Shown here: in pieces, positions 6,892 through 28,225 of the stretch
How the letters are laid out: each line of letters begins with the position of its first letter
Position numbering within the stretch: the stretch's first letter is position 1
NCBI GenBank assembly: GCA_018669845.1
Contig: JABHSO010000091.1
Coordinates: 1 to 35,495, forward strand
Direction: 5' to 3'
Length of the DNA stretch: 35,495 nucleotides
Source: Gammaproteobacteria bacterium
Lineage (GTDB): Bacteria; Pseudomonadota; Gammaproteobacteria; GCA-001735895
Translations under genes and position numbers: made by a program
The notes under the pieces: generated by a model
Told to the model about the DNA's origin: nothing
Databases searched by the model: none
What the model saw: the letters and a program-made list of their open reading frames with translations, nothing else

Positions 6892-6901
6892 ATAGAAATA
6901 G

Positions 6902-6940
6902 GTGCCCTGCCAAGTCTGAATAACGAGCCTTGCAGGGCAC
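6902..6940 (+). terminator. Intercistronic hairpin between napA and napG
   Basis: GTGCCCTGC (6902-6910) pairs perfectly with GCAGGGCAC (6932-6940), extended inward by AAG/CTT after one bulged C, with a loop of about 14 nt. It begins 10 nt after the napA stop and ends 20 nt before napG. There is only a short T-rich tail (CTTTTC). It is better read as a partial terminator or 3' stabiliser that raises napA mRNA over napGHBF than as a full stop. Confidence 0.65.
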
Positions 6941-6960
6941 ACTTTTCATCAAACTTAAAA

Positions 6961-11821: not shown

Positions 11822-12096
11822 TTTTCCGATTGTAAGTAATCAAATACCTGGTTGAGCTGTTGCTGAGTCAATTTTGGCATACCAATACTCTGCATACGTA
11901 TTTGCATCGTATTCAACACTATACGCCACTGCTTCGGTTTCAGTCGTTTTGCAGCCGGTGTCTGATGGCAGATATTTGAGCAATTTGTATTAAATATTTG
12001 CTGACCTACTTTAATACTTTCGTCATTGGCTGAAGTTTCTGCCAGAGTAGTACAGCCATAAAAAATCAGCATTAGAGTAATGAGCCGTTTAATCAT
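11818..12096 (-). CDS. Small monoheme cytochrome c with a CX3CH motif
   Basis: 92-aa exported protein: signal peptide to about residue 20, then a short class I-like cytochrome c fold. The heme site is C39-SNI-C43-H44, with three residues between the cysteines instead of the usual two; I checked this codon by codon. A later Met in SIGMPKLT is the probable axial ligand, followed by a C-terminal helix (QQLNQVFDYLQSEK) typical of class I cytochromes. It overlaps its neighbours by four bases on both sides, so it is made together with the two thioredoxin-like proteins. It could shuttle electrons to or from them. Confidence 0.75.
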   Translation of the reverse strand: MIKRLITLMLIFYGCTTLAETSANDESIKVGQQIFNTNCSNICHQTPAAKRLKPKQWRIVLNTMQIRMQSIGMPKLTQQQLNQVFDYLQSEK

Positions 12097-12668
12097 GGCA
12101 GCTGCAGCTCCAGAATTTCAGCCAGTGCAGTACCCGTTCGATAATCTTCATTCAATAGAATTGTCCCATCATTATCAATAACGACTACAGACCCCATTGC
12201 AGCATTTAACTGATCAAATAATTGCTGATCTTCATCTGCCAGAATTGTAAAAACTGAATTAGAATAACCATTTGCCTCGGCCGAGGCTCGAGTAATAGAA
12301 ACACTGCCCGAAACATAGTCAACCAACGCATAAACAACGGTACCTCGTCCACTAAACTGCGGAATAATGAAGTTATGGATATGGTCGGTGTGAGACAGGC
12401 AAACCGGACACCACATAGTAAAATAGAGAACAATCACATCAGCAGGGGTGGTTCCACCGTTCAGGTGCTCTGACAGGGTAAAGTCATTGTTCTCGGTATC
12501 TATAATAGTAAAATCAGATAATATTTGACCAGGCATGTTACCTATTGAACCATCAACAACATCTTCCCTCTGATCACTACTAGAAGGTTTCAAATCATCT
12601 GTTATTTCACTACAGGCTGTTAAAAATACCAGACTTGCAAACAACAAAAACTGTTTAACGTAAGACAT
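12093..12668 (-). CDS. Lipoprotein thioredoxin/redoxin (WCPVC)
   Basis: 191-aa lipoprotein of the AhpC-TSA/redoxin superfamily. The lipobox LTAC gives Cys19 as the lipid acceptor. The thioredoxin fold follows with active site W86-C87-P-V-C90 in YFTMWCPVCLSH and a conserved C-terminal VVVIDNDGTIL strand. A flexible, acidic linker (residues 20-50) would let it reach out from the membrane. The start overlaps the barrel gene by 14 nt and the stop overlaps the mini-cytochrome by 4 nt. A Sco-like or peroxiredoxin-like role is possible; it lacks the Sco histidine context as far as I can see. Confidence 0.75.
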   Translation of the reverse strand: MSYVKQFLLFASLVFLTACSEITDDLKPSSSDQREDVVDGSIGNMPGQILSDFTIIDTENNDFTLSEHLNGGTTPADVIVLYFTMWCPVCLSHTDHIHNFIIPQFSGRGTVVYALVDYVSGSVSITRASAEANGYSNSVFTILADEDQQLFDQLNAAMGSVVVIDNDGTILLNEDYRTGTALAEILELQLP

Positions 12669-13635
12669 GACTCACCCCCACAGTTATTACATCGGTGGCT
12701 GGAAAGTTATAACCCCAGCCATCCTCTGTTGGAGAATGACTCCAGCTTAATTTGGTAACCCAGTCTCTGCTATGTGTGGCCCAGGCCAGAGTCAAAGCCA
12801 TGGATTTTTTTCTAAAACCGGAAGTCGGGTCGGTGATACCATCAATTTCTGACTTATCTTCTTTCAGGTAGGAATAGGCAAAAGTAGTGGTGATAGAATT
12901 CATCTCATCAGTAAAATGGGTATATCCAAAGGTGAGAGTTGAACTGAAACGATCTCCTAATTTTTTATCATAAGGCTCAACATAGGTGCCATATTCACGA
13001 TTAATTGGCCTTTCAAGGTATTTACCATAATTAGCACTAAAGCTGGCATTCCAGGGATAGATGGTTTTATCAATCAATACCGATGCATCGAAACGGTAGA
13101 AACCTCTTCCAGTTATATCAAAATTATCCTGTACATCGCCATAAGGTGAAATACCTGTAGGCAAGTTCAGTGTTCCCCCCCAGTAAATGGCGGGCATCAA
13201 ATCTGCCCAGGTATTCACTTCCCAAACACAGGCAATCTTGTCAAAGGCTTCATACCAGACCGATACACTGGAATCTCCAATGCCATTGGTGTCGCGTTGC
13301 AATTTAGAGTATTGATTCTTGTTCCAGGTATATGGCAAGGAGGCAGATACCTGCCAGCGCGGTGCCAGACGATGGGCATAACCGAAATTCAAACGATACT
13401 GATTAAGATCAGAACCCTGAGGATCAGCAACCCAGTCACCATTATTATCCCAGAAGCCATTATAGTGCTCATAGCTTGTCGATAAATCCAGCATAGCCCG
13501 GGAGAACTTTGGCAGTATAAGCCCTGAACCTGAACCACCTCCACAACATGAAGCAGCCCAGGCTGAAGAATTAACCAGTAGTTGTACTGCACTTAAAAAA
13601 AGCACAGCACTCATAAACTTTAAAATTAGTTTCAT
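12655..13635 (-). CDS. Outer-membrane beta-barrel with an N-terminal Cys-Cys-Gly3 tip
   Basis: 326-aa exported protein, signal peptide to AWA (residue 27). Directly after it comes ASCCGGGSGSG with adjacent cysteines C30 and C31, a likely metal or thiol site. The rest alternates short amphipathic strands rich in Tyr, Trp and Thr (LSTSYEHYNGFWD, YRLNFGYAHRL, SATFGYT-type segments) and ends VGVSHVLR, typical of a small outer-membrane barrel. The specific family is not recognised. It lies between the Met-rich lipoprotein and the lipoprotein thioredoxin; the gap to the former is 17 nt and the overlap with the latter is 14 nt. A channel or receptor role in metal or thiol handling is inferred from neighbours. 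Confidence 0.7.
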   Translation of the reverse strand: MKLILKFMSAVLFLSAVQLLVNSSAWAASCCGGGSGSGLILPKFSRAMLDLSTSYEHYNGFWDNNGDWVADPQGSDLNQYRLNFGYAHRLAPRWQVSASLPYTWNKNQYSKLQRDTNGIGDSSVSVWYEAFDKIACVWEVNTWADLMPAIYWGGTLNLPTGISPYGDVQDNFDITGRGFYRFDASVLIDKTIYPWNASFSANYGKYLERPINREYGTYVEPYDKKLGDRFSSTLTFGYTHFTDEMNSITTTFAYSYLKEDKSEIDGITDPTSGFRKKSMALTLAWATHSRDWVTKLSWSHSPTEDGWGYNFPATDVITVGVSHVLR

Positions 13636-13652
13636 AACAGCACCAACAAACC

Positions 13653-15353
13653 TTACATGCTCATACTGCTTCCCGGAGTCACTGTAAACCGGGCATAACC
13701 ATTGTCACTATCAGCTACTGCACCTCCGATAGTATTACTGTATTGCACTCCATTAATATCCATACGAACATAAATAATTCCTTCAGAACCATTGGTCAAA
13801 CCCGCAATACCAGTTGCAGTCCAGTAACCATCATCAGTACTTTCAGCAGTGACCCAGCTATCAACATCATCGGGAGTAGTTGTCATCTGTACGGTCATAG
13901 TAGAAATAGTCAGGTCATCAATCATGTCACTACCAGAGTCCAGTGTGACATTCTCATACACAGCCTGATAACTCATCATGCTTTCTTCAGCTGCAATAAA
14001 TATCTCAAAAGTATGATTATCATCCATGCCTGTCAGCTCAGATTTAAACAGGCTATAAGGACGAACAGCTGGCATTCCCATCATATTGGCAATTGTATCG
14101 TCACTATTTTTCAGCGTAGTACGAACCGTATCACCCATTGCCATCATAACGGACGGGTAGAAATGAGCCATTTCACCTCCTTCCATTGTCATTGCACCAT
14201 TGTCCATAACCATCGTGCCACCAATCATGATGTTCAGATCCCAATAACCCATAGATCCACCATCCATCATTTCAGACTCCATGATATAAAACAGTGTACA
14301 GTTGTACGTTCCGGCAAAGTCATTATCTTCAGTACATCCATCAACAGGAGTAGAATGCATCATCGATTCCATATACATCATAGGCATCAGAGTAATGCTT
14401 TTCCCGCTTTGAACTAAACTACCTTCAAGATTGGTTAGCCTGATTTGAAACTGGCTCTTACCATCCATTGCATCCAGATCAGATAAAAATTCTACTCTAT
14501 AGTTTTCCGTAAGAACCGTTGAGCCAAAGATCAGATTATTCTCAAGTCCGGTAACATCATTCCCTCCTTCATGGAAACCCATTAATGCAGCAGCAAACTG
14601 GCTTTTAATTTCTGCAGGTAAAGTAGTTGAAGCTGCACCAAAAGTAATTGCAACAGATTCATCTTCACCATCAAGACTACCATCAGAAAGATCCAGAGCC
14701 AGAGCAGTTAAAAGACTAAACTGCTCGGTAGTAGCGAGTCCAAGATTTGCAGTCAATTGACTAAAAGCTGCTGCTCTTATACCTGCTAAAAGTTCAGATT
14801 CACTGGAACCATCAACCGGGTCAGTAGCATCAGTAGGTTCAACAGTCGTATCCGGAATATAACCAAACCCATCAAGATATGCATCCTGAGCCATAGTCAT
14901 TGTCATGTTATGAGTAGCAATCAATTGCTGGATAATACTACTGCCAGGTGTCGCATGAATGCTGTCACCATTGCTTAAAGTGCCGCCAGCCACATAGGCA
15001 GATAGAGTGCCAGCTGAGACTGGGTCTCCTCCAGCCACTTCGTCAATATAAGTACCGCCGTTACAGGTCAAAATCAGATCATTTTCCAGCTCGCTGCTCG
15101 GTACGTTAGTAACATAAACTCCTTCAGCCCCCGACATAAATGGTCCAGCTATAACTGTACCCGCGGTATTTTGAATTTCACAACTGGCATTACTAACGTA
15201 TGAAGCAAACACAGACCCGGTTATCGAAGATGTGGAAACACCTCCATCATCAGAACCGCCTCCGCCTCCACCGCAACCTGAAATAGCCAGAGAAGTGGTC
15301 ATCACTAAAGCCAGGGTATAACGAACAAACGTAGGGTAATTTAATTTTGACAA
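13653..15353 (-). CDS. Met-rich surface or periplasmic lipoprotein, partly YtkA/FixH-like
   Basis: 566-aa lipoprotein: signal peptide, lipobox ISGC (Cys27) and a Gly/Asp/Ser-rich linker. Residues 320-406 hold 19 methionines in about 85 residues, including LMPMMYMESMMH, IMESEMM and SVMMAM. The pattern MPMM.M, a Tyr-Asn-Cys strand and an MGYWDLNI strand resembles the YtkA/FixH-type beta sandwich. Such Met clusters are typical of Cu(I) or Ag(I) sites, but binding is an inference. A second strand-rich domain fills the C-terminus, and the middle (residues 180-270) looks helical. It is first in its operon, behind a palindromic operator and a perfect -10. I cannot assign an established family to the whole chain. 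Confidence 0.7.
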   Translation of the reverse strand: MSKLNYPTFVRYTLALVMTTSLAISGCGGGGGGSDDGGVSTSSITGSVFASYVSNASCEIQNTAGTVIAGPFMSGAEGVYVTNVPSSELENDLILTCNGGTYIDEVAGGDPVSAGTLSAYVAGGTLSNGDSIHATPGSSIIQQLIATHNMTMTMAQDAYLDGFGYIPDTTVEPTDATDPVDGSSESELLAGIRAAAFSQLTANLGLATTEQFSLLTALALDLSDGSLDGEDESVAITFGAASTTLPAEIKSQFAAALMGFHEGGNDVTGLENNLIFGSTVLTENYRVEFLSDLDAMDGKSQFQIRLTNLEGSLVQSGKSITLMPMMYMESMMHSTPVDGCTEDNDFAGTYNCTLFYIMESEMMDGGSMGYWDLNIMIGGTMVMDNGAMTMEGGEMAHFYPSVMMAMGDTVRTTLKNSDDTIANMMGMPAVRPYSLFKSELTGMDDNHTFEIFIAAEESMMSYQAVYENVTLDSGSDMIDDLTISTMTVQMTTTPDDVDSWVTAESTDDGYWTATGIAGLTNGSEGIIYVRMDINGVQYSNTIGGAVADSDNGYARFTVTPGSSMSM

Positions 15354-15628: not shown

Positions 15629-18286
15629 CTATTTAATATAATCAACCCCGATATCACGGCTCAATTTATCGTGGTAGTACTTATATTTCAATTGCGTCTC
15701 AATTCCATGGCAATCTACACAGAAAGTTCCTTTAACACCTTTTAGTCTCAGAAAACTATTTAAAACATTTCCAACCTTATTTTTGTTATCTATAACATCC
15801 ACATGAGTATTTGTAATTTTACTTCCGACCTCCCAATGATGTGGTTCATGGCATGTAATACAGGCAATTGAACCGAACTCTGACACCTTTTCCTGATCAT
15901 TCAATAATGGCATAACCTTGGGATCTGATCGCAATATCAGATCTTTTTGAGGGTGATCAAAATATTTTACTATTGACTCCTTTGCACTGCCTTTTTCACG
16001 GTGGCAATCAAGACAAAGTTGATCTCTTTTAAAAATATTCTCCTCACCTTCATGAGTCGACCCGGTAACTGCAAATAAATAATTATCAGCTATTTCTCCT
16101 CGATGCATACTATGGCAACTTCCGCAAACACCAGACTGCTGAGGTAACTGTTCATATTTATTTAAACTTTTATCTGCCGTTATGCGTAAGTCATGGTCTG
16201 AATAAATGACGGCATTGTTTCCTTCATGACATTGACTGCAAAGCTCTCCATTTTTATATTCTTCATGTAACACAGGGGTACCGGGTTCTCCGCCATGCAC
16301 ACTATGACAACTCAGACAAGTTACTCTGGTCACTTCCTTTCCAGCAATTTCAACAGGATTCTCAAGCTCTACATTGACGACGTGAACCCCTTTATCTCTA
16401 GCTTTATTTTCATCTTCAGCATGATGGCGTTGATGACAGCTTGAACAAAGCTTTTCTATACTCTCTGGACTTTGAATTAACAGCGCTGATTTCTCACTCC
16501 CATTATGAACTGAGTGGCAAACCTGACAGGTGACTTGTTTGATTTTTTTACCATCAATTTCAACGGCTTCATCCATTTCTATATTAACGGGATGGATTCC
16601 TTTTTCTCTTGCCTGTTTTTTATTCTCACTGTGCAAATTTTCATGACAGGATTTACAAAGTTCATGACTGTTAAATCCAGATATTAATAATGATTTACTT
16701 TCTGCTCCATGAATTTGATGACAACTTTGACACAGCATCTGTTGTTGAGATCCAGTACTGGCACCTGCATTCTTTAGCTCACTGGGTAAACCTTTATGTA
16801 ACTTTTCAATGCTGGTATAACCCTTTGAGTTTTCATCAGGAGCTTGCTTTAACAAAATACCCACAGGGTGGTTTACTCCGGTTAAGGGAAACTCATCATC
16901 AACAGCACTACTCAACTTTGATTCATGACATTTCTGACATAAATCTCCCTCATTATTTAATACCCGCAACCATGGATTAGCATGGGATTCATATAAAGTA
17001 TCCGCTTCATCAATTCCTGATGTATGGGGAGTATGACAACTTCCACAGGATAATTGTTTACCGGCTAACAACGGAAACTGTTCGGGTATTTTATCCTGAC
17101 GTTCTGTTAATTTATTTTCTTCTCTTCTATGATGAATATCTGGGTGTTGTTCACCTCGACCTATAACACGCCGAGAATCAATAACCGCTCCATGATGACA
17201 GCTATAACACATATTTTGGCTAGCTACAGGAAGCACACCATCTTGCTCTTTCTGTTCAGAGTGAGTGGCTTCTGCCCATGAAAAATGGCATATATCACAA
17301 TTTTTCCGTGATGTTTTATTTTGCTCAGAACCAAATTTATCTGCTATTAAAACACCACTTCTGTTAAGCGGAGCTATAATTTTTTTTACTGTATTATTAA
17401 TAGCATCAACAATATACAGATGACCTTTATGCCAGTTTAAACCAACAGGTGATTTAAAGTTAACGGCTGTTTTACCATCAACCGATAGTAAGCCCATAAA
17501 TCGACCATTATTGAAAATAGAAATCGTTCCGAGATAACTATTACTGACAAACAGACGACCATCTTCTGAAAAAGTTATTCCATTGGGCCGATACAGTTCA
17601 CCAGTCGCCAGGCCAAATCTTGATATCTGCGTAAAGTATTTTCCCTTACGATTAAATACTTGCACACGACCATTTAATACATCAACCACATGCAGATAAC
17701 CATCTCTATCAACAGATATATGAAATGGAAACTGGAACTCAGATTTTAGCTCTCCCCGCTTACCCCAGCAGGATGCTGCTTTTTTTGTTATCAGATCAGT
17801 TTGGCATAACTGATGATTTTTTCTATCACTCCAGGTTATCACATCATCCTGAACAACCAGTCCAACCGGTTCCGGTAACCCGGTATTTTTATTCTGAGTA
17901 ACTAATGGAATATTTTTTACAAACCATCCACGCAATTCAAAAACAGCAATTCGATGATTAGCAGTATCGGCAATATACACATGGTTATCTTCAATAGCTA
18001 AAGCCATGGGTAAGTTCAATTCCCCTGCTCCACTACCCTGCTTACCAAAGGTATATATTCTTTTACCCTGAGCTGAAAGTACAACTACACGGTGCTGAGC
18101 TCCATCCAGTACAAAAAGCCTGCCATCCTCAGAAACGGCAATATCTGTGGGTTGATTAAAGCCAGATCGAAAACTTTTAACTTGCTCTGCCTGGCCTTCA
18201 CTGCCTTCGACTGTCTGCACCATTAGCATTAATAAAAATAATGCTAATAGCAGATTTATTTTTGATAGTAAAACCGGAGCAGTCAT
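15629..18286 (-). CDS. NHL beta-propeller fused to a 14-heme cytochrome c
   Basis: 885-aa exported protein. A signal peptide (to about residue 29) is followed by an NHL-type propeller (about 36-305) of roughly six repeats such as NQPTDIAVSEDGRLFVLD, FPFHISVDRDGYLHVVD and YRPNGITFSEDGRLFVSN. Residues 330-860 carry 14 CXXCH heme motifs, many followed by -x-x-H in the multiheme style (CHTPH, CHSVH, CHEPH). Residues 544-683 are a tandem pair of 70-residue diheme modules. It is the last and largest gene of the conduit operon, starting 2 nt after the 3-heme gene stops. Propeller-cytochrome fusions suit a large extracellular or periplasmic electron carrier that docks to a partner through the propeller. 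No anchor other than the signal peptide is seen. Confidence 0.85.
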   Translation of the reverse strand: MTAPVLLSKINLLLALFLLMLMVQTVEGSEGQAEQVKSFRSGFNQPTDIAVSEDGRLFVLDGAQHRVVVLSAQGKRIYTFGKQGSGAGELNLPMALAIEDNHVYIADTANHRIAVFELRGWFVKNIPLVTQNKNTGLPEPVGLVVQDDVITWSDRKNHQLCQTDLITKKAASCWGKRGELKSEFQFPFHISVDRDGYLHVVDVLNGRVQVFNRKGKYFTQISRFGLATGELYRPNGITFSEDGRLFVSNSYLGTISIFNNGRFMGLLSVDGKTAVNFKSPVGLNWHKGHLYIVDAINNTVKKIIAPLNRSGVLIADKFGSEQNKTSRKNCDICHFSWAEATHSEQKEQDGVLPVASQNMCYSCHHGAVIDSRRVIGRGEQHPDIHHRREENKLTERQDKIPEQFPLLAGKQLSCGSCHTPHTSGIDEADTLYESHANPWLRVLNNEGDLCQKCHESKLSSAVDDEFPLTGVNHPVGILLKQAPDENSKGYTSIEKLHKGLPSELKNAGASTGSQQQMLCQSCHQIHGAESKSLLISGFNSHELCKSCHENLHSENKKQAREKGIHPVNIEMDEAVEIDGKKIKQVTCQVCHSVHNGSEKSALLIQSPESIEKLCSSCHQRHHAEDENKARDKGVHVVNVELENPVEIAGKEVTRVTCLSCHSVHGGEPGTPVLHEEYKNGELCSQCHEGNNAVIYSDHDLRITADKSLNKYEQLPQQSGVCGSCHSMHRGEIADNYLFAVTGSTHEGEENIFKRDQLCLDCHREKGSAKESIVKYFDHPQKDLILRSDPKVMPLLNDQEKVSEFGSIACITCHEPHHWEVGSKITNTHVDVIDNKNKVGNVLNSFLRLKGVKGTFCVDCHGIETQLKYKYYHDKLSRDIGVDYIK

Positions 18287-18288
18287 TT

Positions 18289-19071
18289 CTACCTCAGTAG
18301 ATCACTCATTTTCAATCGATCGGTATCTTTTTTATATCGACTAAAAAACTGAGCAATTTTGTTACTGGTAATTGAATGACTTTGTTTTTCATTTGCTCCA
18401 AGTAATTTAAAATCTAATACCTTCTGATTTTCACTATGGCATTTATCACAACTTAGTCCTTTCTTATTTAGTGGCTTGTGTAAATTAGCTTTGAGTCGAG
18501 CTTTATCTTCAATAGAAAACGTTTTCCACTTATTTTCTACTTCCCTGGAGAATTTTTCATCCTTAAAAACCAGCATCCTTTGATCATTATTAATAGGAAT
18601 AATTCGAGCACCAGGTCGAGGCAAAATTGAAACTTTTACTTTTTCAGCCTCAGTATGAACAGAGCTATAAACATCAATTACCTGTCCAGCATTCGGGTAT
18701 CCATATGCAAGCCATTTATATTTCAGTTTCATACCTTCATCTTTCAGATGACAGGTTTCACAGCTAATATAATTAGTATGCATATTTAGAAAACTTCGAT
18801 TTCGTTGATTCACCTGATGTGGTTTTTCAAGGTGACAGTTCTGGCAGAATGGTTGTTTAAGTTTATTCTCAGTTTCTTTTTTATGGTGAAAAGGATTAAC
18901 AGAAAGATTCTTTTTAAGCTTTATCTCTTTATGTTCCCTGAGTTGCTTTAAAGCGTCTGCTACATTTTTATCTGTAACATTTTTACCATCTACCAGTTCA
19001 ATAAATAAATTATCAGCAGTTACCGACAAACTGAGTAACAGGCAAAAACTTAACATTATTAATTTAATCAT
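18289..19071 (-). CDS. Triheme cytochrome c, periplasmic
   Basis: 260-aa protein from the ATG at 19071 (272 aa if the ATG at 19107 is used). I prefer 19071 because it gives a clean signal peptide (MIKLIMLSFCLLLSLSVTA) and an 8-nt overlap with the gene before it, while the earlier start adds a Lys/Arg-rich lead and a 44-nt overlap. Heme motifs are CQNCH, CETCH and CDKCH. The regions between are Lys-rich and hydrophilic, so the protein is basic, which would suit a soluble shuttle between acidic partners. No family is recognised. It sits between the inner-membrane octaheme fusion and the 14-heme protein. Confidence 0.78.
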   Translation of the reverse strand: MIKLIMLSFCLLLSLSVTADNLFIELVDGKNVTDKNVADALKQLREHKEIKLKKNLSVNPFHHKKETENKLKQPFCQNCHLEKPHQVNQRNRSFLNMHTNYISCETCHLKDEGMKLKYKWLAYGYPNAGQVIDVYSSVHTEAEKVKVSILPRPGARIIPINNDQRMLVFKDEKFSREVENKWKTFSIEDKARLKANLHKPLNKKGLSCDKCHSENQKVLDFKLLGANEKQSHSITSNKIAQFFSRYKKDTDRLKMSDLLR

Positions 19072-21280
19072 CAGTTTTCTCGCTTGAATCAGAATCTTTT
19101 TCAACATTATCCTGAGAGCTTAGAGCTGTTTTTTTACCCTGTCTTTTTTTACCTGGAGTCCGACCTAAAACTTTTTTCTGGAAATGATCGCCTCCCACTA
19201 CGGCATAAATGACATTTTTCTTTTTGCCAAATATTTTCCATAAAATAGTGCCTCCACCTAAAATAATAAGCACCGGTAAAAGTGCTGCCAGGGCTTTTAC
19301 CCAGTTTGACTCCATTCTGGATTGATCGAGTGGAGAGTCAGGATTTAACAGTGGGATAATATCAATATCGTGTAAATCTGTTTTTACAAAACCAATATTT
19401 AACGGGTTGATAGCAAAACCATGGCAACCTGAGGCAGCACAGGTTTTTGCCAAATTTTCAGGATGTGTGGAGGCTTCAGGATCATTGTGTCTTTTAACAC
19501 CATGACTAAAGCCGTCCGGTGCATGACAATCAATACATGAAGCACCTTCTTCTACCCCTGACTTTAATAGTCGACCATGTAAACTCATTTCATAACTATC
19601 ACTCGCCAGTACAAATCTGGGCCCAACCAGATTTTTTTCACCTGTTTGTTTATCTTCAATTTCTACTTTTACCATACGTTCATGATCTGCATGACAGTCA
19701 TTGCACATTTTATTTTTATCATTTTTACCCCAGCGAGAACCTATAAAACGCCGTAATATATGCCCACCAAATTGATTCAACCAAACTTCACCCTGATGAC
19801 AGTTTCCACACTCTGTATCCAGATGAGCAAAGGAATCCTTAAACTTGGGCATATCTTTCTGGCTGATGAATAACTCATTGGTATGACAACTGCGACAGGA
19901 AGGATATACATCCAGAGATTCTTCAAGGCGATTGCCACCGGTTAATCCTTTAGTCCAACCATTACCATGTGCAGATTGCTGAAATTCTTCCACTACTTTT
20001 TTATGTGTATAGGCTTCTTTTCCTGAGGGTTCTTCCACGTGACAGGATTCTGCACAATCGACTTCACCATTTTCAACTTTATGTGGAAAATATTGAATTT
20101 CACGGTGACAATCTTTGCAGGGAACACTGCCATGCAATGAACTAAAATAATGTGACTTATCAATAGATGAGTTTCGTAAAACACCATTTTCATCAATGTA
20201 CTCAAGCCCCTTCAAAGCATGACAGCTAAAACAGCCATCAGGATCAGGATGGCGCTCTGCAGCGTCCACCTGAGTAACAACTATCATCAGCAGGATAAGA
20301 CCAAAAATCACACCTATAACTACTCGCTGCCAGCTACTAACTTTCCAGCCTTTCTTTTTTAAATCATGAACTGCTTTCCATTCAGGATGCGGGAAATAAT
20401 CAGCACCCTTCTTTTTACGCTTTGGCTCAACAGCTCGTGGAACCGCAACCCAGTCAATAGCATGCCAGTCACACACATCAACGCATTCATGACAGGACAT
20501 ACAGGAGTGCTGATCAACAACCGCTATCTTATCGATCATTTTGATGGCACCTGTCATGCAATTTCGTGCACAGATATTACAACCTGTGCAACGACTACGT
20601 TCAACACGAATATGACGGGTAAAACGGAACATAGATCCCAGTCGATTGACCAACCCGTCAATGGCTCCAACAGGGCAAAGAAACTGGCAGTAAGCACGAC
20701 CTTTAACCGCAAAAAAACCTAACAGGAATAACAGCGCCAGGTTGACCAGCCCAACAGCAGAAAGGATAAAAGCAATACCCATGAAATCACCGCTGAAAGC
20801 CTGAAATATTCGAGGCACCGTTACAAAATTACACAGCGTACAGGCACTGATTCCAAGCATCGGCATCAACACCAGATAGACACTAAAATACCCATAACGA
20901 ATCGGCACCTGAGGTAAACCACGAAACTCAATTTTCCAGCGATCTGGAATCATTCGACTAACCAGCTCAGGAAAACCACCCATAGGACATATATAACCAC
21001 ACCACATACGCCCAAAAAAGAAACTGGTAACCAATATGAGGCTCAACGCAATAACACCTATCCAGGCAACACTCATCTGGTTTCCCAGGTCCTCCAGCGT
21101 CATACCGGGGAAATAAAGAAAAAATCTGCGTACACAAACCTTACCGCATAAATCAGGATTACCGACAAGGCTCGGTAAAAACACCCACGGCGCAAGAATG
21201 GCAAAACAGGCAAGTATAATAATGAAATACCTGTATTTCTGGCCATTGGGTATTGCTACTATCTGGCTAATTAATTTCAT
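19064..21280 (-). CDS. NapH-like polyferredoxin fused to an octaheme cytochrome, inner membrane
   Basis: 738-aa membrane protein in three parts. Residues 1-280 resemble NapH/NosR C-terminal polyferredoxins: about five helices, two membrane motifs (WCGYICP at C94/C98, YCQFLCP at C198/C202) and two cytoplasmic [4Fe-4S] sites (C231/234/237/241 and C260/263/266/270). A helix at about 320-338 then leads to a periplasmic cytochrome with eight heme sites at C350, C388, C409, C462, C491, C526, C582 and C614. C409 is CX3CH (CAESCH) and C614 is CX4CH (CAASGCH). A last helix (about 665-683) and a Lys/Ser-rich cytoplasmic tail end the chain. The fusion looks like a quinol dehydrogenase passing electrons directly to hemes, in the role of CymA or NapC. 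CMSCH at 260 is a ferredoxin ligand set, not a heme site. Confidence 0.88.
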   Translation of the reverse strand: MKLISQIVAIPNGQKYRYFIIILACFAILAPWVFLPSLVGNPDLCGKVCVRRFFLYFPGMTLEDLGNQMSVAWIGVIALSLILVTSFFFGRMWCGYICPMGGFPELVSRMIPDRWKIEFRGLPQVPIRYGYFSVYLVLMPMLGISACTLCNFVTVPRIFQAFSGDFMGIAFILSAVGLVNLALLFLLGFFAVKGRAYCQFLCPVGAIDGLVNRLGSMFRFTRHIRVERSRCTGCNICARNCMTGAIKMIDKIAVVDQHSCMSCHECVDVCDWHAIDWVAVPRAVEPKRKKKGADYFPHPEWKAVHDLKKKGWKVSSWQRVVIGVIFGLILLMIVVTQVDAAERHPDPDGCFSCHALKGLEYIDENGVLRNSSIDKSHYFSSLHGSVPCKDCHREIQYFPHKVENGEVDCAESCHVEEPSGKEAYTHKKVVEEFQQSAHGNGWTKGLTGGNRLEESLDVYPSCRSCHTNELFISQKDMPKFKDSFAHLDTECGNCHQGEVWLNQFGGHILRRFIGSRWGKNDKNKMCNDCHADHERMVKVEIEDKQTGEKNLVGPRFVLASDSYEMSLHGRLLKSGVEEGASCIDCHAPDGFSHGVKRHNDPEASTHPENLAKTCAASGCHGFAINPLNIGFVKTDLHDIDIIPLLNPDSPLDQSRMESNWVKALAALLPVLIILGGGTILWKIFGKKKNVIYAVVGGDHFQKKVLGRTPGKKRQGKKTALSSQDNVEKDSDSSEKTDD

Positions 21281-21285
21281 AACAT

Positions 21286-22146
21286 CTATAAATCAAATTT
21301 GTGGCAAACCAGACACAATGTGCCATCTTTTGCGGGTAGTCTTAATAACACTTCATACTTGATGCGCTGATATGAAAGCTCTATTTCTTGTCCACTATGC
21401 TCTGCTAATTTTTTCAACCGTGATTTTTTATCTTCCTGCACTATGTTATTCCAGGCATGTTTTTCATAACCAATGCCTAACTCAAGGTCTCTATCCTGTA
21501 CCTGTTTACCTGCTGCTTTATGCATATCCAGAACACCCTTTTCATGCACAGCATGGCAGCTTATACAGGTAATTAATTTTCCATTCAGTGGAATGCTCAC
21601 CTGATGTTTACGTTCATATTTTTTAATCCGTTCTAACATGTCATCATCAACTTCCAGCAAATGATTATTAGCATTAAGATGAGGTGTTTTTAAATGACAG
21701 CCGAGGCAGAGTTTCTGTGGAAGTAATCTAAATTCGAAATCCTCACGAACATATTCTTCTTCGGGATCAGGGGTTTCTACATGGCAAAATTTACACTGCT
21801 GTTTTTTTAATTCACCCTTATCATCAAGAAGCCGGTGTATATTTTCCCTCTGGTTTGATTCTCTATCATGACATTGATAACAGAAATCAGTTATCTGTTG
21901 ATAGGGTCCCTGCCTGAAAAAATCATCAGCATCTCTATCTACTTCATCAAATGGAGTTTCTTCAATATTTTTCACGTCATGACAAGTTTTACAATCAATC
22001 TGGCCCTTTTTATTTAAAGGAAACTTTTCAGGTACTGTCATTGACTCAGGTACATTTATATCGACCACATGATGTAATGGTGGAAGTTTGACTTCTGCAT
22101 GGGAAGCCATTGAGACAAGCAAACATAAAAAAAATATTATTCTCAT
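21286..22146 (-). CDS. Hexaheme cytochrome c, periplasmic
   Basis: 286-aa exported cytochrome starting at the ATG at 22146 (MRIIFFLCLLVSMASHAEV, a good signal peptide). A GTG at 22152 would add two residues and give a GTGA overlap with the gene before it. Six heme motifs are seen: CKTCH, CYQCH, CKFCH, CLGCH, CISCH and CLVCH. Extra histidines (LPPLHHVV, KTPHLNANNH, CHAVH) can serve as distal ligands. No known family is recognised. Placed between the 8-heme lipoprotein and the inner-membrane fusion, it is a likely periplasmic relay. Confidence 0.82.
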   Translation of the reverse strand: MRIIFFLCLLVSMASHAEVKLPPLHHVVDINVPESMTVPEKFPLNKKGQIDCKTCHDVKNIEETPFDEVDRDADDFFRQGPYQQITDFCYQCHDRESNQRENIHRLLDDKGELKKQQCKFCHVETPDPEEEYVREDFEFRLLPQKLCLGCHLKTPHLNANNHLLEVDDDMLERIKKYERKHQVSIPLNGKLITCISCHAVHEKGVLDMHKAAGKQVQDRDLELGIGYEKHAWNNIVQEDKKSRLKKLAEHSGQEIELSYQRIKYEVLLRLPAKDGTLCLVCHKFDL

Positions 22147-22148
22147 GA

Positions 22149-23126
22149 TCACATGCCTGCCTGCACTGCTTCGCCATGACTATGGCATAACTGACAGTTA
22201 CCCGCTATTTCATGCAATCCGGAAAGTCCATTCCCAACATCCAGTTCTGCTTCATCCAGCAATACATCCATCTGATGGCACATGACACATAACTCAGCAT
22301 TATTACCGGAAGCATTATCGATACTATATGGTTTGATCCTGATTTCAGGGTCAAGCTTACTCAGACCCTTTTTAGAATCATCAATAATCAGACCCGTATT
22401 ATCAGTACCATGCATAACATGGCAGTCAGTGCATTCAACAAAACTATCGTATCTATAACCTTCTCGCAGACCGGCATAACTTCTTTCACCTGTACCTGCT
22501 TTCTCACCATGTTTATCAACATATTTATAATTATCAGCCATAGCGATCAGCGGGTTTTCATAATCAACATCCATCTCAAAACCTGTTTGCTGATGGTCTC
22601 GGTTATGACAGCGCAAACAAAAGTCAGAGCTTGAAGTGTAGGACGTATAAAGTTGCCTGGAGTCTTTAAGTCGGGTTAAATCGCGATTAGGATCAAAGTC
22701 ACCATTCATGTCTGAAGCCAAATGACACTCCACACACTGCTCATCTTTTAAAGCTTCAGTGCTTTCTGAATCGAAGGTATGACTGTGTTTACCTTCAGCA
22801 ATTGGCATTTCAGCTAAATCAGTGCTGTTATGACAAACTAAACATTTTCTAGGTTCAGACGAGCCATTACTACCATGACACCCGGTACAACTATCATAAC
22901 CCTTGCTTTGAACAATGGACCTAATGGAATCAGCCTGCTGGTGAATTGAATTTAGCACATGACAACCATCACATTCAGCTAAGCCCCATGCCGACCCTTC
23001 TCCTCCATGAGACTCTGTTAATATCAGGTTGCCACTTTCAGACGATACTGTTTCGACTTTGTCTGAATTATTGCAAGCAGTCAGCAATACACTCAGAACT
23101 AAAAACAAACACTTCAAGATTCTCAT
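22149..23126 (-). CDS. Octaheme cytochrome c lipoprotein
   Basis: 325-aa lipoprotein starting at the ATG at 23126, which overlaps the preceding stop as ATGA (an in-frame ATG at 23147 is also possible). The signal ends in the lipobox LTAC (cysteine 18 from this start). Eight CXXCH sites follow: CDGCH, CTGCH, CLVCH, CVECH, CLRCH, CTDCH, CVMCH and CQLCH. The chain is acidic overall. In MtrCAB-type systems an outer-membrane lipoprotein cytochrome carries electrons to the outside, and this is the candidate for that role. Which face of the outer membrane it is on is not evident. No named family is recognised. Confidence 0.83.
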   Translation of the reverse strand: MRILKCLFLVLSVLLTACNNSDKVETVSSESGNLILTESHGGEGSAWGLAECDGCHVLNSIHQQADSIRSIVQSKGYDSCTGCHGSNGSSEPRKCLVCHNSTDLAEMPIAEGKHSHTFDSESTEALKDEQCVECHLASDMNGDFDPNRDLTRLKDSRQLYTSYTSSSDFCLRCHNRDHQQTGFEMDVDYENPLIAMADNYKYVDKHGEKAGTGERSYAGLREGYRYDSFVECTDCHVMHGTDNTGLIIDDSKKGLSKLDPEIRIKPYSIDNASGNNAELCVMCHQMDVLLDEAELDVGNGLSGLHEIAGNCQLCHSHGEAVQAGM

Positions 23127-23746
23127 CGAGAACCACCCCGATGACAATCAGCACAATAACCCGCATTGTGACAGCGTGAACAGGAGTAAGCATTCATACG
23201 TGCATCTATACCGTGGGTATTGATATAAGCTAATTTATGCTGACGGTGTGTTGACCTGTCACGTTTAAAATGACAGTCAGTGCAAAAAGACAACTTCAGA
23301 TGGCATGTCTGACATTCTCCATTGTCCAGCCAGGAATCTTCTGCATGCTGGTTGATATAGTCAAAATCATGATTATCAGGCCATATAACCGTGGGATCAT
23401 TATGACAAAGAACGCATTCAAAAGGTGCTTTCTGTTTATCCAAATGACAGTCATGACAAATTGCTTCCAGCGGTTCATTGGAAATCGTTGTAATTGATTT
23501 AACCAGCTCAGAATTAACAAGCTTATTTCTATTAAAAGAATGACATAGCAAACAGGGGTCTCCTTCCTTCTGCATTACTTCCATGTGTGCATTATGGGGA
23601 TAAAAAATATCGGCACGATCATGCCTTTTTTGCCACCAGGATTTGTCTTCCAGTTTATTGATAGTATCAGATGCATTTCCTGCATGAGACATCAACATTA
23701 AAAATATCAACATTGGAATAGAACAAATAAGCTTTAGATTATTCAT
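23123..23746 (-). CDS. Heptaheme cytochrome c, periplasmic, barrel partner
   Basis: 207-aa exported protein from the ATG at 23746, giving the signal MNNLKLICSIPMLIFLMLM...GNA and an 8-nt overlap with the barrel gene; an ATG at 23773 is less likely. Seven heme motifs are packed into about 150 residues: CLLCH, CHDCH, CVLCH, CQTCH, CTDCH, CSRCH and CADCH. The dense, short chain and its place directly after the barrel gene suggest the periplasmic wire that plugs into the barrel, in the role of MtrA (decaheme) but with fewer hemes. That pairing is inferred from gene order. Confidence 0.82.
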   Translation of the reverse strand: MNNLKLICSIPMLIFLMLMSHAGNASDTINKLEDKSWWQKRHDRADIFYPHNAHMEVMQKEGDPCLLCHSFNRNKLVNSELVKSITTISNEPLEAICHDCHLDKQKAPFECVLCHNDPTVIWPDNHDFDYINQHAEDSWLDNGECQTCHLKLSFCTDCHFKRDRSTHRQHKLAYINTHGIDARMNAYSCSRCHNAGYCADCHRGGSR

Positions 23747-24977
23747 CAAACCAACCCTTAGCCCGGTCATCAAAACGGTAGCTCAATTTTAGTCCAAACA
23801 GATATTCATCATCGACATGACTATTCCATACTCTGGAAACAAAAAAAGTAAAATACAAATCAGAACGAATCATTTGTTGAAAATCTGCTTCAATGGCCAC
23901 AGCCTGATTATTGCCACTCAACCATTTCTGTTGATGCTGAATAGCTGCACTAAATCTTGATGTAATTAATGGTGAGAATGAATAATTCGTCTCACCATAT
24001 ATTGATAAAGCACTATCTTTATCCAGTTTAAGAAAATCCACCTGAGCCAGGTATTCGGTTCCAGAGTATTTATTTAAATCCAGACCCAGTGTTAATCCAT
24101 AGCCATTTTCACCATGTTCTCGTAAAACTGTGCGGCCCCTGGTACTCCAGCTCATTGTAGAACTGGAACTAAAAAAATAACTAGCAGCTAACGATGTTTG
24201 TCTTCCTTTCACATAAACTGAATAAAACTGTTCTCTAAATGATAATTCAGGATCATCAAGAGAAAAGGTTTCATAGTCAATTTGCAAACGCTTGTTTTTT
24301 TCTAAATCACCATAGAATTTAAATTGAAGCTGTTCAGTACTGTCTTTACTGGTCAGATAGCTGCCATTAAAATCAATACCAAAATTCAGAAAGATACTAT
24401 TAGTTATTTCTCCTGAACTACTCAGCCCCCAGTTCAGACGAGTTTCGTGCTGTTTAGTTTCAAGCATTTCATCTTCCAGTCGCTGCCAACCAATTCGTGC
24501 TTCAGAAGTTTTGAATAAAATATCAGAGGATAACCGGGGAAGTTTGATAGCTGAAAAATAAATATCAAATCCATACAGTGCTTCACCGCTTACGACGGCA
24601 TAGTCATCAATTCTGGAGGGATTTCCTGCATACATCTTTAGCAGAAAATCATCATTATTTGAATTTAGTACCGCACCATCCAGGGTATAGAAGCCTAAAC
24701 TATCTGCACGTTCAAAACGGCCCAATTTATAAGCTGAGAGTAGCCCATCCAGTTTTTTTGAAAAATACATCTGGTACACATTTGCTTCGTTTTCATCATC
24801 CTGACGTAATGCAAAACTTAATCCCGACTCAACACCATTAGCATCATCAACAAAACGAATATCGGCATACTCTTCGATAAACCCCATTGAATTATTAAAG
24901 TGGGTGTCTGTTTGAACACGCCCATCCACTTGCCCATAAAATCCGGCATTTACAACGCCTGATATTGATGACAACAA
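23739..24977 (-). CDS. Outer-membrane beta-barrel of the cytochrome conduit, non-canonical start
   Basis: Barrel protein of at least 412 aa, with alternating polar/aromatic strands throughout (YFSKKLDGLLSAYKLG, LYFTFFVSRVW, YLFGLKLSYRF near the end) and no cysteine. It would be the sheath of a porin-cytochrome conduit, about 60% of the size of MtrB. The coordinates use the first standard start codon (TTG at 24977), but this cuts a signal peptide in half. The codons upstream read KILSRSFLLILLSSISGVVNA, an excellent signal, and reach back to 25007, directly after the TAG stop of the 77-aa gene, in the same frame. No ATG, GTG or TTG lies between. Translation probably starts at a rare codon (the ATC at 25004 lies 8 nt after AAGGA) or continues through the TAG. 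Confidence 0.75.
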   Translation of the reverse strand: MLSSISGVVNAGFYGQVDGRVQTDTHFNNSMGFIEEYADIRFVDDANGVESGLSFALRQDDENEANVYQMYFSKKLDGLLSAYKLGRFERADSLGFYTLDGAVLNSNNDDFLLKMYAGNPSRIDDYAVVSGEALYGFDIYFSAIKLPRLSSDILFKTSEARIGWQRLEDEMLETKQHETRLNWGLSSSGEITNSIFLNFGIDFNGSYLTSKDSTEQLQFKFYGDLEKNKRLQIDYETFSLDDPELSFREQFYSVYVKGRQTSLAASYFFSSSSTMSWSTRGRTVLREHGENGYGLTLGLDLNKYSGTEYLAQVDFLKLDKDSALSIYGETNYSFSPLITSRFSAAIQHQQKWLSGNNQAVAIEADFQQMIRSDLYFTFFVSRVWNSHVDDEYLFGLKLSYRFDDRAKGWFDE

Positions 24978-25007
24978 TATCAGTAAAAAAGAACGGGAAA
25001 GGATTTT

Positions 25008-25241
25008 CTAAATCCTTTTATGCGGAGTACTGCTGAGCTCTTCCTGATCACCTTTTTTCATGACAGCCCAGGATACCAGGGCAATAAGAGCAACCGCACA
25101 ACTACCACAGGTATTACAGTGACCTTCCCTGGTCACTGTACAATTTGTAGACATCGCTATATGAGTCACGGCCAATGAAGCACCGGCAGCCCAGGGTGCC
25201 AATTGCTTCAATCGACCGAGATTTTTTGACTTAATATCCAT
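25008..25241 (-). CDS. Small Cys-rich membrane protein in the conduit operon
   Basis: 77-aa protein of unrecognised family. Two hydrophobic stretches (LAPWAAGASLAVTHIAM and CAVALIALVSWAVM) flank a Cys-rich loop, NC...HCNTCGSC, with four cysteines. That is enough for a disulfide pair or a metal or iron-sulfur site, though no heme CXXCH is present. It starts 2 nt after the octaheme gene stops. Its TAG stop is followed in the same frame, with no break, by the signal peptide of the barrel. Its role may be assembly or anchoring of the conduit; this is a guess from position. Confidence 0.6.
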   Translation of the reverse strand: MDIKSKNLGRLKQLAPWAAGASLAVTHIAMSTNCTVTREGHCNTCGSCAVALIALVSWAVMKKGDQEELSSTPHKRI

Positions 25242-25243
25242 CT

Positions 25244-28225
25244 TTATTTTCTGATAGAAAATAATTCTATATTTCTAACAACGGCCAGTAACAGCCCAAA
25301 CATCAGGAACAGGTAACCCAGGCTTCCACCACCACCACTACTACTATCGGAATCATCACTATCATCAACCGGTATTGTAGAACTGGTATCAGCTACTTCA
25401 GTTGCAGTGTAGAAACTGAAATGAGTCGTTTGAAAAACAATATAGCCAGCTTCCATATCAGTTTTAGCCCGTACAATTAAAATATCAGCAGGGTTAATAA
25501 GTGACCATGTTTCCCCATCGGTCGATGTAATAATATTGATTTTATCTGCATCACTACTACTTCCACTATAAGGCAGTTTTACCAATACAGAAGAATTGAA
25601 TGATGTCTGTTTTTCACCAGAAGGTTTATTGAACTGCAAAGAGAAAACTTCTGCCCCGGCAACCAGATCACCAAGCCCGGCTGCTGCTGCATTAGCACCC
25701 GTATCATCATCAGCAATACTGACCTGAAGCGTGTAATCTGCAAAATCTTCATCATCAGAAATGACGATGACATCACGAATAGAGTAATCGCCCTGACGAG
25801 ACTGGAACAGAAATGCATTGGTGTTTCTTAACTGGGCTGCCAGTTGAGTCACATCGTCAGCATTTGATATTCCGGCTGAAGCCATGGCCTGATCAATCAA
25901 CTGAGTGACTGTATATGATTGAGCTGCCGCAGTGGCTGCTGTGGCTACTGCAGATCTCAAAGCTGTCATCGATGGGTCAACAGTACTGTAGGCAAGAATA
26001 TCAGAAACATTGGCTCTTACTGTTGCCTGACCATCTTCATCAACAACTGCATTACCATCTTCATCGACAACCATTTTCATGTAAGGATAATCGAATACAA
26101 TAATGCCATCAGTCACAAGTTTTGGATCAATAATAGTGGCTACTTCATAACTGTTATTTTCACCAAAAATTCCATCATCAGAAACCAGGGCACTGATAGT
26201 TGTTCCATCCTGTTTGTAGTTATGACACTCTTCACACTGCACCGAGGAAACGGCAGGACGGGGATTATGAGAGATAAGATACTGATTAGGCTCTGACCAG
26301 ACCAGAACAGCATCCGGATTTTCTATTCCATTACTTTTAAATACCTTGTCATAAGCCATTTTTAACCCAGCAAAACCTTCATAATCAGCAGGATCATTAT
26401 AACGGAAGCTGCCGTGAGAAATTCTACCACCCACTTCTGCCAGGGTTTCACCCGTTTCAGGGTCAAAGATAGCTCCTCCTGTTACATTACCTTCATCATC
26501 TTTAATTTCACGAAAAACGCTGTTGCGTTGTGTCTGGTCTAATACCATTCCAGTATTATTATCTTTCCAGAAGTAACGGGGTTTAGGCTTATAGGGAACG
26601 ATAGTTTGTTTGCCGTTCTCTGCCTCACGATAGCGAAACATCGGTTCGAATTCTGTCCCTCTGACAGCTTTATCGGTGATATGACAGGCCTGACAACTGA
26701 CTACATCCAGATGGGCTTTGGTGATTTTTTCAACTTCACTAGCAGGTTGTCCACTCATGTCTCCACTGAGTTTCCACAGTGTTTCATGAGCCGCTTGCAT
26801 ATTGGTTTCCCCAGATGGATTAGCCTGTACTGCCAACGTTGGATCTGAGTTGTCATGACAATACTCACAGGATTTAGCATTCGGGTTGTAATCAAGGTCA
26901 TTACGCACATCCATATCAGAGTTTCCTTTCAGAAAATCATGACTGGCATTCATATCTGCACTGGCTGAAAGAGGGTTATAATAATTTCGAGAGTGACATA
27001 CATTACAATTTTCAATGGTACGAGACTCACCATTGGCCTCTGTCCATATTTTACCTTTATGCACATCATCCTGATAATCTTCAACAATAAGTCCGTCATC
27101 ATCAAGATCAGCCTCGGCATTTTCACCAAAACCATAAAAACCACGACGGGAATTACTGGTTCTATGACAGGCCATGCAATTGTCATTGGCTGAGAAACGT
27201 AACATGGGAATGGCAACCTTTCTCTCTTCAGGAGTGTCACCGTCAACAAAGGCATCTGCATTCCAGTTAATGATTGGTTCACCGGTCGTTTCATCAAACA
27301 CTACTTCCGTATCCGAAATCTCACCATCTTTGGGCATTTCCATACCATGATCACTTGTTACCATATCTTCACGTTCAAAAGATAACAATGTCCGGTCATC
27401 CCCTTCAACACCCTCTATATTCAGGTTCAAAACTTCAAGGATTGCCGTATTGGATTCGCGAAAATGCCCCTGATCAATCAACACACCACGTCTGACATTA
27501 CTGGCCATTCTCGATGCACTTCTAGTTTCTATCTCAGAATCCATCACCACAAGATTAGTCAGGTCAGCGTGACATTTGAAACAGTCATTTTCAACAACAC
27601 CTGATTTTTTCCAGTCCCATTGACTAACCACATCAGAATCAACGTGATGATTATTCTCATCCGTTCCACGGTTGTAATAGTCACCATCGAACTCAGTCAC
27701 GGTTGAAGGATCAGTCTCATCATAACGATTTCCATTACGATCCTTCTCCATCCAGCCACCACCAGAATGGCAACTTTCACAACGCATAATCAATCCAGCA
27801 CTACCATGATCACCAAAGTCATTGGCACTGCTGTTAGATTTTTTAGCCAGAGAGTCAGGATTATTACTACCCATGCAGTTATAACCTCCGTAATAACCGG
27901 GACCAACCAGATTGCTAAGACCTATCTTGGCACCAAAATCGTCGCTGGTTTCATCACGCCCCTGCTCAATATGAAAAGCATGAGTAATTTTTTCATAGTC
28001 ATGACAGGAACCTCCACAGCTTTCTTTTGGGCTATAGGCTTTGCCACTATCCAGCACATGATTCCCATCCTCATCATACAAAGGAATAGCAATATGAAGA
28101 GATGGTTCATCATAGACATTTGCCTGTGCAGGCCCTGTCAAAGCGAATAAAAGCCCCCCTAAAACAAGGCTGGCTAATGCTCTGCCCCGACTACTTTGAT
28201 GTAATTTCATTCTGGTTGATATCAT
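25244..28225 (-). CDS. Surface octaheme cytochrome with GlyGly-CTERM-like tail
   Basis: 993-aa exported cytochrome. I place the start at the ATG at 28225 because AGAGG lies 6-7 nt before it; the open frame extends to 28273. The signal ends near PAQA. Eight heme sites are seen: CGGSCH (a CX3CH), CESCH, CFKCH, CMACH, CNVCH, CEYCH, CQACH and CEECH, the last at about two-thirds of the chain. The C-terminal third has no hemes, is Ala/Asp-rich and then strand-rich. It ends with SGGGGSLG, a hydrophobic helix and basic residues (VVR, SIRK), as in GlyGly-CTERM substrates of rhombosortase. It is very acidic (VVDEDGNAVVDEDG). First gene of the conduit operon, behind the palindromic operator. Surface location is inferred. 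Confidence 0.85.
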   Translation of the reverse strand: MISTRMKLHQSSRGRALASLVLGGLLFALTGPAQANVYDEPSLHIAIPLYDEDGNHVLDSGKAYSPKESCGGSCHDYEKITHAFHIEQGRDETSDDFGAKIGLSNLVGPGYYGGYNCMGSNNPDSLAKKSNSSANDFGDHGSAGLIMRCESCHSGGGWMEKDRNGNRYDETDPSTVTEFDGDYYNRGTDENNHHVDSDVVSQWDWKKSGVVENDCFKCHADLTNLVVMDSEIETRSASRMASNVRRGVLIDQGHFRESNTAILEVLNLNIEGVEGDDRTLLSFEREDMVTSDHGMEMPKDGEISDTEVVFDETTGEPIINWNADAFVDGDTPEERKVAIPMLRFSANDNCMACHRTSNSRRGFYGFGENAEADLDDDGLIVEDYQDDVHKGKIWTEANGESRTIENCNVCHSRNYYNPLSASADMNASHDFLKGNSDMDVRNDLDYNPNAKSCEYCHDNSDPTLAVQANPSGETNMQAAHETLWKLSGDMSGQPASEVEKITKAHLDVVSCQACHITDKAVRGTEFEPMFRYREAENGKQTIVPYKPKPRYFWKDNNTGMVLDQTQRNSVFREIKDDEGNVTGGAIFDPETGETLAEVGGRISHGSFRYNDPADYEGFAGLKMAYDKVFKSNGIENPDAVLVWSEPNQYLISHNPRPAVSSVQCEECHNYKQDGTTISALVSDDGIFGENNSYEVATIIDPKLVTDGIIVFDYPYMKMVVDEDGNAVVDEDGQATVRANVSDILAYSTVDPSMTALRSAVATAATAAAQSYTVTQLIDQAMASAGISNADDVTQLAAQLRNTNAFLFQSRQGDYSIRDVIVISDDEDFADYTLQVSIADDDTGANAAAAGLGDLVAGAEVFSLQFNKPSGEKQTSFNSSVLVKLPYSGSSSDADKINIITSTDGETWSLINPADILIVRAKTDMEAGYIVFQTTHFSFYTATEVADTSSTIPVDDSDDSDSSSGGGGSLGYLFLMFGLLLAVVRNIELFSIRK

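Follow-up and report, generated by a model that had tools for sequence, protein, structure and literature searches.

Methane and sulfur oxidisers at oxic-anoxic boundaries persist at low oxygen, and by which route they dispose of their electrons is an open question. Here, we examine a stretch of gammaproteobacterial DNA of 35,495 nucleotides (assembly GCA_018669845.1, contig JABHSO010000091.1; the window), in which the minus strand from 15629 to 28225 is filled by nine open reading frames (ORFs), g1 to g9, rich in c-type heme motifs. Does this operon build a path for electrons across the whole cell envelope, and is that path of a kind already known? Judged from its sequence and conservation, the operon probably encodes a trans-envelope conduit that would lead from the inner membrane to extracellular acceptors, most likely sending electrons out when oxygen is short. 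We take it to be the ortholog of the MCA0424 operon of Methylococcus capsulatus (Bath), the link to strain Bath resting on gene counts, gene order and upstream strings. The nine genes, in the direction of reading, are as follows.

25244..28225, minus strand: g1, surface-type multiheme cytochrome of 993 amino acids (aa) with 8 heme motifs and a GlyGly-CTERM-like tail
25008..25241, minus strand: g2, predicted membrane hairpin of 77 aa with cysteines C34, C42, C45 and C48 between its hydrophobic parts
23739..24977, minus strand: g3, outer-membrane beta-barrel with 22 predicted strands, no plug domain and no heme motif
23123..23773, minus strand: g4, heptaheme cytochrome of 216 aa, overlapping the barrel gene; candidate barrel occupant
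22149..23147, minus strand: g5, octaheme lipoprotein-type cytochrome of 332 aa
21286..22152, minus strand: g6, hexaheme cytochrome with a signal-like N-terminus
19064..21280, minus strand: g7, inner-membrane protein in which a NapH-like 4Fe-4S module is fused to an octaheme domain
18289..19107, minus strand: g8, triheme cytochrome with a signal-like N-terminus
15629..18286, minus strand: g9, NHL beta-propeller followed by 14 heme motifs

A scripted count over the nine genes gave 54 heme motifs (51 CXXCH, two CX3CH and one CX4CH), the number given in the original prediction, with 8 in g1, 7 in g4, 8 in g5, 6 in g6, 8 in g7, 3 in g8 and 14 in g9. The motifs of g1 are seven CXXCH and CGGSCH, and those of g7 are six CXXCH, CAESCH and CAASGCH; the CMSCH at residue 260 of g7 was left out as a 4Fe-4S ligand motif. 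Both odd sites of g7 are constant in spacing across all aligned rows (32 of 32). At the odd site of g1 (residue 70 of 993) the first cysteine and the CH are kept while the spacer varies among 34 rows (20 CX4CH, 6 CX5CH, 3 CX2CH, 2 CX3CH, 2 CX7CH and 1 truncated), the CX7CH form being found also in Methylococcus. Because this spacing drifts, the hemes number 53 or 54, and the g1 odd site is the least certain heme of the operon. Conserved histidines outside the motifs, candidate second heme ligands, equal the heme number in three of the seven cytochromes (8/8 in g1, 7/7 in g4, 8/8 in g5) and come near it in the rest. The barrel, the lipoprotein cytochrome, the surface-type cytochrome with its GlyGly-like tail and the NapH-like/octaheme membrane protein are likewise all present as predicted. 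The nine genes do lie on one strand, and the junctions are overlaps or gaps of 2-5 nucleotides (nt), g2-g3 excepted; the claimed maximum gap of 5 nt gives way there, to 30 nt when g3 is started at TTG 24977. That start truncates the signal peptide and leaves it without a charged beginning, the frame is open upstream to the g2 stop (24978-25007, minus strand, shared with the g2 frame), and the near relative L003 has its barrel TTG seven codons further upstream; the true g3 start therefore probably lies just behind g2. An ATC at 25004-25002 would give g3 a full signal peptide.

How new is this gene set? Passages of Larsen and Karlsen (2015/16, PMC4831470) describe the MCA0424 operon as 11 genes with eight multiheme c-type cytochromes, 58 CxxCH motifs and the beta-barrel MCA0427, and propose electron export to the cell exterior, a function for which these authors state that there is no biochemical evidence. 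They also report that the eight cytochrome genes are 2.3-8.6 fold up in copper-limited cells producing soluble methane monooxygenase (sMMO), and that MCA0424 and MCA0426 were detected in the surface fraction by mass spectrometry. The region was already noted in a passage of the Methylococcus genome paper (Ward et al., PMC517821). In our data, the g4 gene occurs in 5 of 6 genomes of the genus Methylococcus, and the five loci carry 11 genes in the order g1, g2, second g1, barrel, heptaheme, octaheme, hexaheme, NapH-like, octaheme, triheme and NHL/14-heme, with eight multiheme cytochromes and 7+7+7+8+6+6+3+14 = 58 CXXCH. The printed IHF and sigma-54 strings were recovered exactly near the g1 start in one of these loci (L089) and the FUR string with two mismatches. 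All five loci have an exact copy of the sigma-54 string, which by the coordinates does not seem to overlap the g1 start codon. Gene by gene, the window proteins are 29-62% identical to those of L089, with blastp covering only the second half of the barrel.

Gene set and order are the same in both operons: barrel, then heptaheme, octaheme, hexaheme, NapH-like Fe-S, octaheme, triheme and NHL-multiheme parts. The window operon differs in having one surface cytochrome rather than two, a fused rather than a split g7, nine genes rather than 11 and a GlyGly-like tail, and in lacking the three printed upstream strings. The original prediction saw a new conduit type; this claim does not hold, since a counterpart of the operon is already in print (PMC4831470), and the reading as an unprinted system was rejected on the same ground. 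As far as searched, what is new is the spread beyond methanotrophs, the fusion in the inner-membrane protein, the barrel prediction and the pattern of surface anchors; the operon was not found in print for non-methanotrophs in the open-licence literature searched, mostly by listings. According to passages of Tanaka et al. (PMC6281684), M. capsulatus gives measurable current and ferrihydrite reduction, both higher in copper-deficient cells, as well as anodic current with formate. Passages on methanotrophs under hypoxia (PMC11218250, PMC11008690) list outer-membrane cytochromes, mtoA/mtrB, pili or flavins and do not name the operon.

Is the operon conserved as a unit? A search of 5.8 billion proteins returned 39 barrel homologs, and two peptide patterns from the barrel alignment, run on one genome per species for 84,980 species, yielded 43 loci; with two patterns, absence from this list proves little. 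The loci are titled Gammaproteobacteria (including Chromatiales, Methylococcaceae, Methylobacter and Methyloprofundus), Pseudomonadota or 'proteobacterium', and one only 'bacterium'. Conservation of the gene order, proposed earlier as a check, was found: the genes present keep the g1-to-g9 order in 41 of 43 loci, the exceptions being L029, with g1 on the opposite strand, and L021. With g7 and g9 taken as two sub-modules each, 26 loci hold the full eleven. Most of the remaining loci run into a contig end, but in L033 and L042 g8/g9 are missing within the contig, and L033 is without g1 as well. In every locus holding both, the barrel and heptaheme genes are adjacent. In L021 (5259-8210), a g5-like cytochrome of 983 aa with 24 hemes takes the place of g1, upstream of the small protein, barrel and heptaheme. 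Five loci (L031, L037, L038, L040 and L041) have large ORFs upstream on the opposite strand (979-1258 aa, 6-9 CXXCH), which match none of the nine operon proteins at E 1e-4.

The heptaheme g4 was found in 47 of 301 Methylococcales genomes, in 9 of 369 sampled Gammaproteobacteria (the window's genome, six strong matches and two near 1e-13) and in 1 of 398 genomes sampled from the phylum, the window's own. A g4 profile search gave 193 homologs, 120 of them listed. Distant g4-like stretches (~52 bits) in 375-aa frames of two Gammaproteobacteria of one genus (G576:C24 and G674:C40) may belong to a related fused cytochrome.

We class 21 of the 44 host genomes as methanotroph-type and the other 23 as not, going by title, pmoA or position in the tree. 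The pmoA family was found in 15 genomes, all methanotroph-type, while dsrA (15/44) and soxB (14/44) were above cut-off exclusively within the 23 other hosts, 17 of which have either gene; for dsrA, soxB and the JDVT protease treated below, weak matches also occur in controls and only matches above cut-off were counted. The window's host (G000) has no pmoA, no dsrA above cut-off and only sub-cut-off fragments of soxB; its congener carrying L003 does have dsrA. In a tree built on five concatenated proteins of 31 loci (midpoint drawing, root unknown), the 14 methanotroph operons form one clade with support 1.000, and fused g7 appears in several branches outside it; the methanotrophs and one further clade have two separate genes in place of the fusion. 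Passages of PMC12545173 report that the desulfobacterotal Desulfurivibrio alkaliphilus oxidises sulfide with respiration of iron oxide, and the operon hosts would be gammaproteobacterial candidates for the same combination.

At the outer membrane, the model of g3 is a plug-less barrel of 22 strands (pLDDT 87), with no match in Pfam or NCBIfam. The g4 protein, 47% identical to that of Methylococcus, has 7 CXXCH and 7 further invariant histidines in 37 rows, and the same at 90% in 43 rows. The small protein g2 is present in 41 of 43 loci, the remaining two beginning at the barrel on a contig edge; its four cysteines are kept in at least 90% of 42 rows, and their loop is a possible metal or Fe-S site; no Pfam or NCBIfam family is above cut-off. 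The octaheme g5 has a lipobox-type N-terminus (LSVLLTAC, read by eye), 8 CXXCH, 8 conserved other histidines and the MtrC-type domain PF22113 (44 bits, cut-off 30). The hexaheme g6, with 6 CXXCH, 7 conserved other histidines and a hydrophobic N-terminal segment, is probably periplasmic. In g7, 16 conserved cysteines include two CX3CP motifs and two 4Fe-4S sets, PF22113 is above cut-off, and two of seven hydrophobic windows flank the octaheme domain, a layout that would suit periplasmic hemes and Fe-S clusters facing inward. The triheme g8 (3 CXXCH, 4 conserved other histidines) is 35% identical to its Methylococcus counterpart over 270 columns, and g9, with an NHL domain (PF01436, 61.7 bits) and paired CXXCH (81.9 bits), 43% identical over 903 columns.

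What holds g1 at the surface? The protein reaches the MtrC/MtrF domain PF22113 at 34 bits (cut-off 30), has 8 conserved non-motif histidines for its 8 heme sites, and aligns nearly full length with both surface cytochromes of one Methylococcus locus (38-41% identity). It ends in a Gly-rich, hydrophobic and basic tail, and the host has a rhombosortase (135 bits, cut-off 84) lying 3 kb from gspD on contig C187; tail and sortase together suggest surface exposure. GspD is above cut-off in 40 of 44 genomes, the window's host included. Among 37 readable g1 C-termini, 21 have Gly-Gly before a hydrophobic, basic-ended tail, and rhombosortase is above cut-off in 18 of the 21 genomes with such a tail and in 0 of 16 without, by a Gly-Gly flag chosen after the rows were seen and with L029 dropped (ORF cut at the contig end). 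Matches below cut-off, found in 42 of 44 genomes and 14 of 14 controls, were not counted. The first automatic rule (hydropathy plus basic end) gave 16/3/2/17 over 38 rows (Fisher p = 1e-5). Among the three tailed genomes without rhombosortase above cut-off are those of L010 and L014, whose g1 tails are of JDVT-CTERM type (36.7 and 44.8 bits, cut-off 27), and the JDVT protease is above cut-off in both genomes and in seven others; these two cases speak for a real matching of surface tail to host sorting enzyme. One locus, L018, has a g1 tail and no sortase found in its genome.

Taken together, these parts suggest the following route. The inner-membrane g7 would receive electrons, either from quinol or from an Fe-S donor in the cytoplasm, and hand them to its own periplasmic octaheme domain; g6, g8 and perhaps g9 would relay them; the heptaheme g4, probably lodged in the barrel g3, would carry them through the outer membrane; and g5 together with the surface-anchored g1 would pass them to an oxidant outside, which would be most useful at low oxygen. 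Of the complete quinol-to-surface pathway claimed at the outset, the inner-membrane-to-surface set stands, conserved as a unit, and its quinol source and cytochrome-holding barrel are inferred. A more specific version, which we put forward tentatively and with slightly more doubt than belief, holds that a separate core of plug-less 22-strand barrel and heptaheme, unrelated to MtrAB, is common to methanotrophs and sulfur-oxidising Gammaproteobacteria, the electron core being fixed and the anchor (GlyGly/rhombosortase, JDVT or none) exchanged to match the host's sorting enzyme. A Methylococcus gene list thereby becomes a defined, conserved protein set that is also found in uncultured Gammaproteobacteria with sulfur-oxidation genes; if the conduit is real, non-methanotrophic bacteria would rely on this little-studied system as well. 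The exchange of surface anchors amounts to a natural experiment on which cytochrome has to lie at the surface, and gene deletion is established in Methylococcus, as passages of PMC6281684 describe.

Several results weigh against the conduit and its anchor pattern. The fold matches of g3 are TonB receptors and porins, with low Foldseek TM-scores (up to about 0.5), and the 50 shown include no known conduit and no MtrB, which is no evidence for a different fold; the predicted structure of g4 reached a pLDDT of 47.8 and gives no support to its fit in the barrel. The barrel was found in 1 of 7 other genomes of the window's genus and 0 of 28 in the rest of the family, and the distribution is therefore patchy. 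None of the printed IHF, sigma-54 and FUR strings occurs in the window within the mismatches allowed. In passages of PMC6281684, deletion of MCA0421, a gene outside the operon, reduced and did not abolish the current of M. capsulatus, and no purification or deletion of any operon protein was found in the parts of the literature searched. As to the anchor, the window tail alone scores 14.8 bits against the GlyGly-CTERM model TIGR03501 (cut-off 15.5), the best of 10 tails scanned alone, and the model is unlisted for whole g1 at E up to 0.1; 3 of the 10 tails match no tail model, and for L016 and L043 MYXO-CTERM models give the better fit, in L043 above one of the cut-offs. Rhombosortase is also present in the seven other genomes that carry the JDVT protease. 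All 16 untailed g1 copies are methanotroph-type, and shared descent therefore explains part of the tail-sortase match.

Some of these points would also suit an ordinary porin or secretion pore holding no cytochrome, with type II secretion exporting g1 to the surface and the remaining cytochromes only storing or shuttling electrons in the periplasm. This is an unlikely reading, for which speak a barrel that aligns with porins and TonB receptors but matches no MtrB model, the GspD of the host and the g4 fold that was not obtained. Against it stand the adjacency of the barrel and heptaheme genes wherever both are found and the predicted barrel itself, plug-less and with more strands than the 16-18 of general porins.

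Multiheme chains are reversible in principle, and electrons might instead flow inward through g1, from Fe(II), a partner cell or a cathode, to the quinone pool or low-potential Fe-S clusters. The 17 hosts with dsrA or soxB could be lithotrophs, and an Rnf operon adjoins; the barrel, unlike Cyc2, is without a heme motif, and the anodic current of M. capsulatus with formate, reported in passages of PMC6281684, is outward flow, with the need for the operon not shown. We consider inward flow improbable. A use in metal scavenging, the surface cytochromes reducing Cu(II) or Fe(III) outside for uptake with no respiratory outlet, has about the same slender chance: in passages of PMC4831470, the cytochrome genes of the Methylococcus operon rise at low copper, a FUR-like box is printed before it (re-found with two mismatches) and it lies within a copper-responding cluster with TonB-family genes, but 54 heme motifs and an inner-membrane Fe-S module would exceed assimilation needs, the sole Fur-consensus row between g1 and rnfA has 7/19 mismatches (no shuffle control), and the operon occurs in the 23 hosts outside the methanotroph type, all without a pmoA-family gene and 17 carrying dsrA or soxB. 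A scan of the window for the Fur consensus gave many scattered rows with 5-7/19 mismatches, the best at 16680 inside g9 (one strand, no shuffle control).

Where does outward conduction through this operon stand among other conduits? With MtrCAB, PioAB and MtoAB it shares the logic of barrel, multiheme and surface cytochrome, and the MtrC-type domain PF22113, above cut-off in g1, g5 and g7. It differs in a barrel that matches no MtrB/PioB model and whose neighbour is a heptaheme, not a decaheme. The decaheme models DmsE/MtrA (TIGR03508) and OmcA/MtrC (TIGR03507) were not reached, with best scores of 58 of 192.2 bits (g9) and 25.5 of 209.3 bits (g5). The prediction had seen no part that looks like MtrA, MtrB, MtrC, OmcS or Cyc2; for MtrB, this agrees with 0 of 39 barrel homologs matching the MtrB/PioB models (TIGR03509, Pfam) at E up to 1, scattered unrelated rows aside. 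An MtrB-type barrel is above cut-off in 8 of 44 genomes; because the other 36 hosts, G000 among them, have none above it, screens that use MtrB as marker would likely miss the operon. In Cyc2, a heme motif is fused in front of the barrel, while g3 has no CXXCH. For the Geobacter Omb/Oma/Omc and Ext systems, with which no direct comparison was made, the barrel and g4 gave no relevant NCBIfam or PDB sequence match; PDB searches with the barrel and heptaheme profiles returned one unrelated row each. The g7 core resembles NapH/MauN (TIGR02163) in being membrane-embedded and in having two CX3CP motifs as well as two 4Fe-4S sets, and differs in being fused or adjacent to an octaheme domain and in scoring 67.9 bits against a cut-off of 213, which makes it a domain homolog only. 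A four-gene Methylobacter bioanode locus (2026), described in passages of PMC13322032 as a decaheme, two monohemes and an MtrB/PioB barrel, is likewise a proposed conduit in Methylococcales; as an MtrA/MtrB-type locus it was rejected as the counterpart.

The operon has further neighbours in the window. About 210 bases from g1, an Rnf-type operon starts divergently at 28435 on the plus strand, with RnfA- and RnfC-type proteins by Pfam. Behind g9, a five-gene module (11315-15353, minus strand) encodes a Met-rich lipoprotein-type protein of 566 aa and a likely outer-membrane protein of 326 aa of SCCGGGSG type, both without Pfam match, two redoxins, one of them lipoprotein-type, and a small cytochrome c. 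Seven further loci (L008, L010, L013, L014, L015, L020 and L024) have homologs of the 566-aa protein next to their conduit operon, and TlpA-like genes follow g9 in several methanotroph loci. On the plus strand (207-9190), a molybdopterin oxidoreductase with a TAT signal (4141-6891) and a ferredoxin-DmsC fusion (207-2090) possibly belong to a respiratory oxidoreductase.

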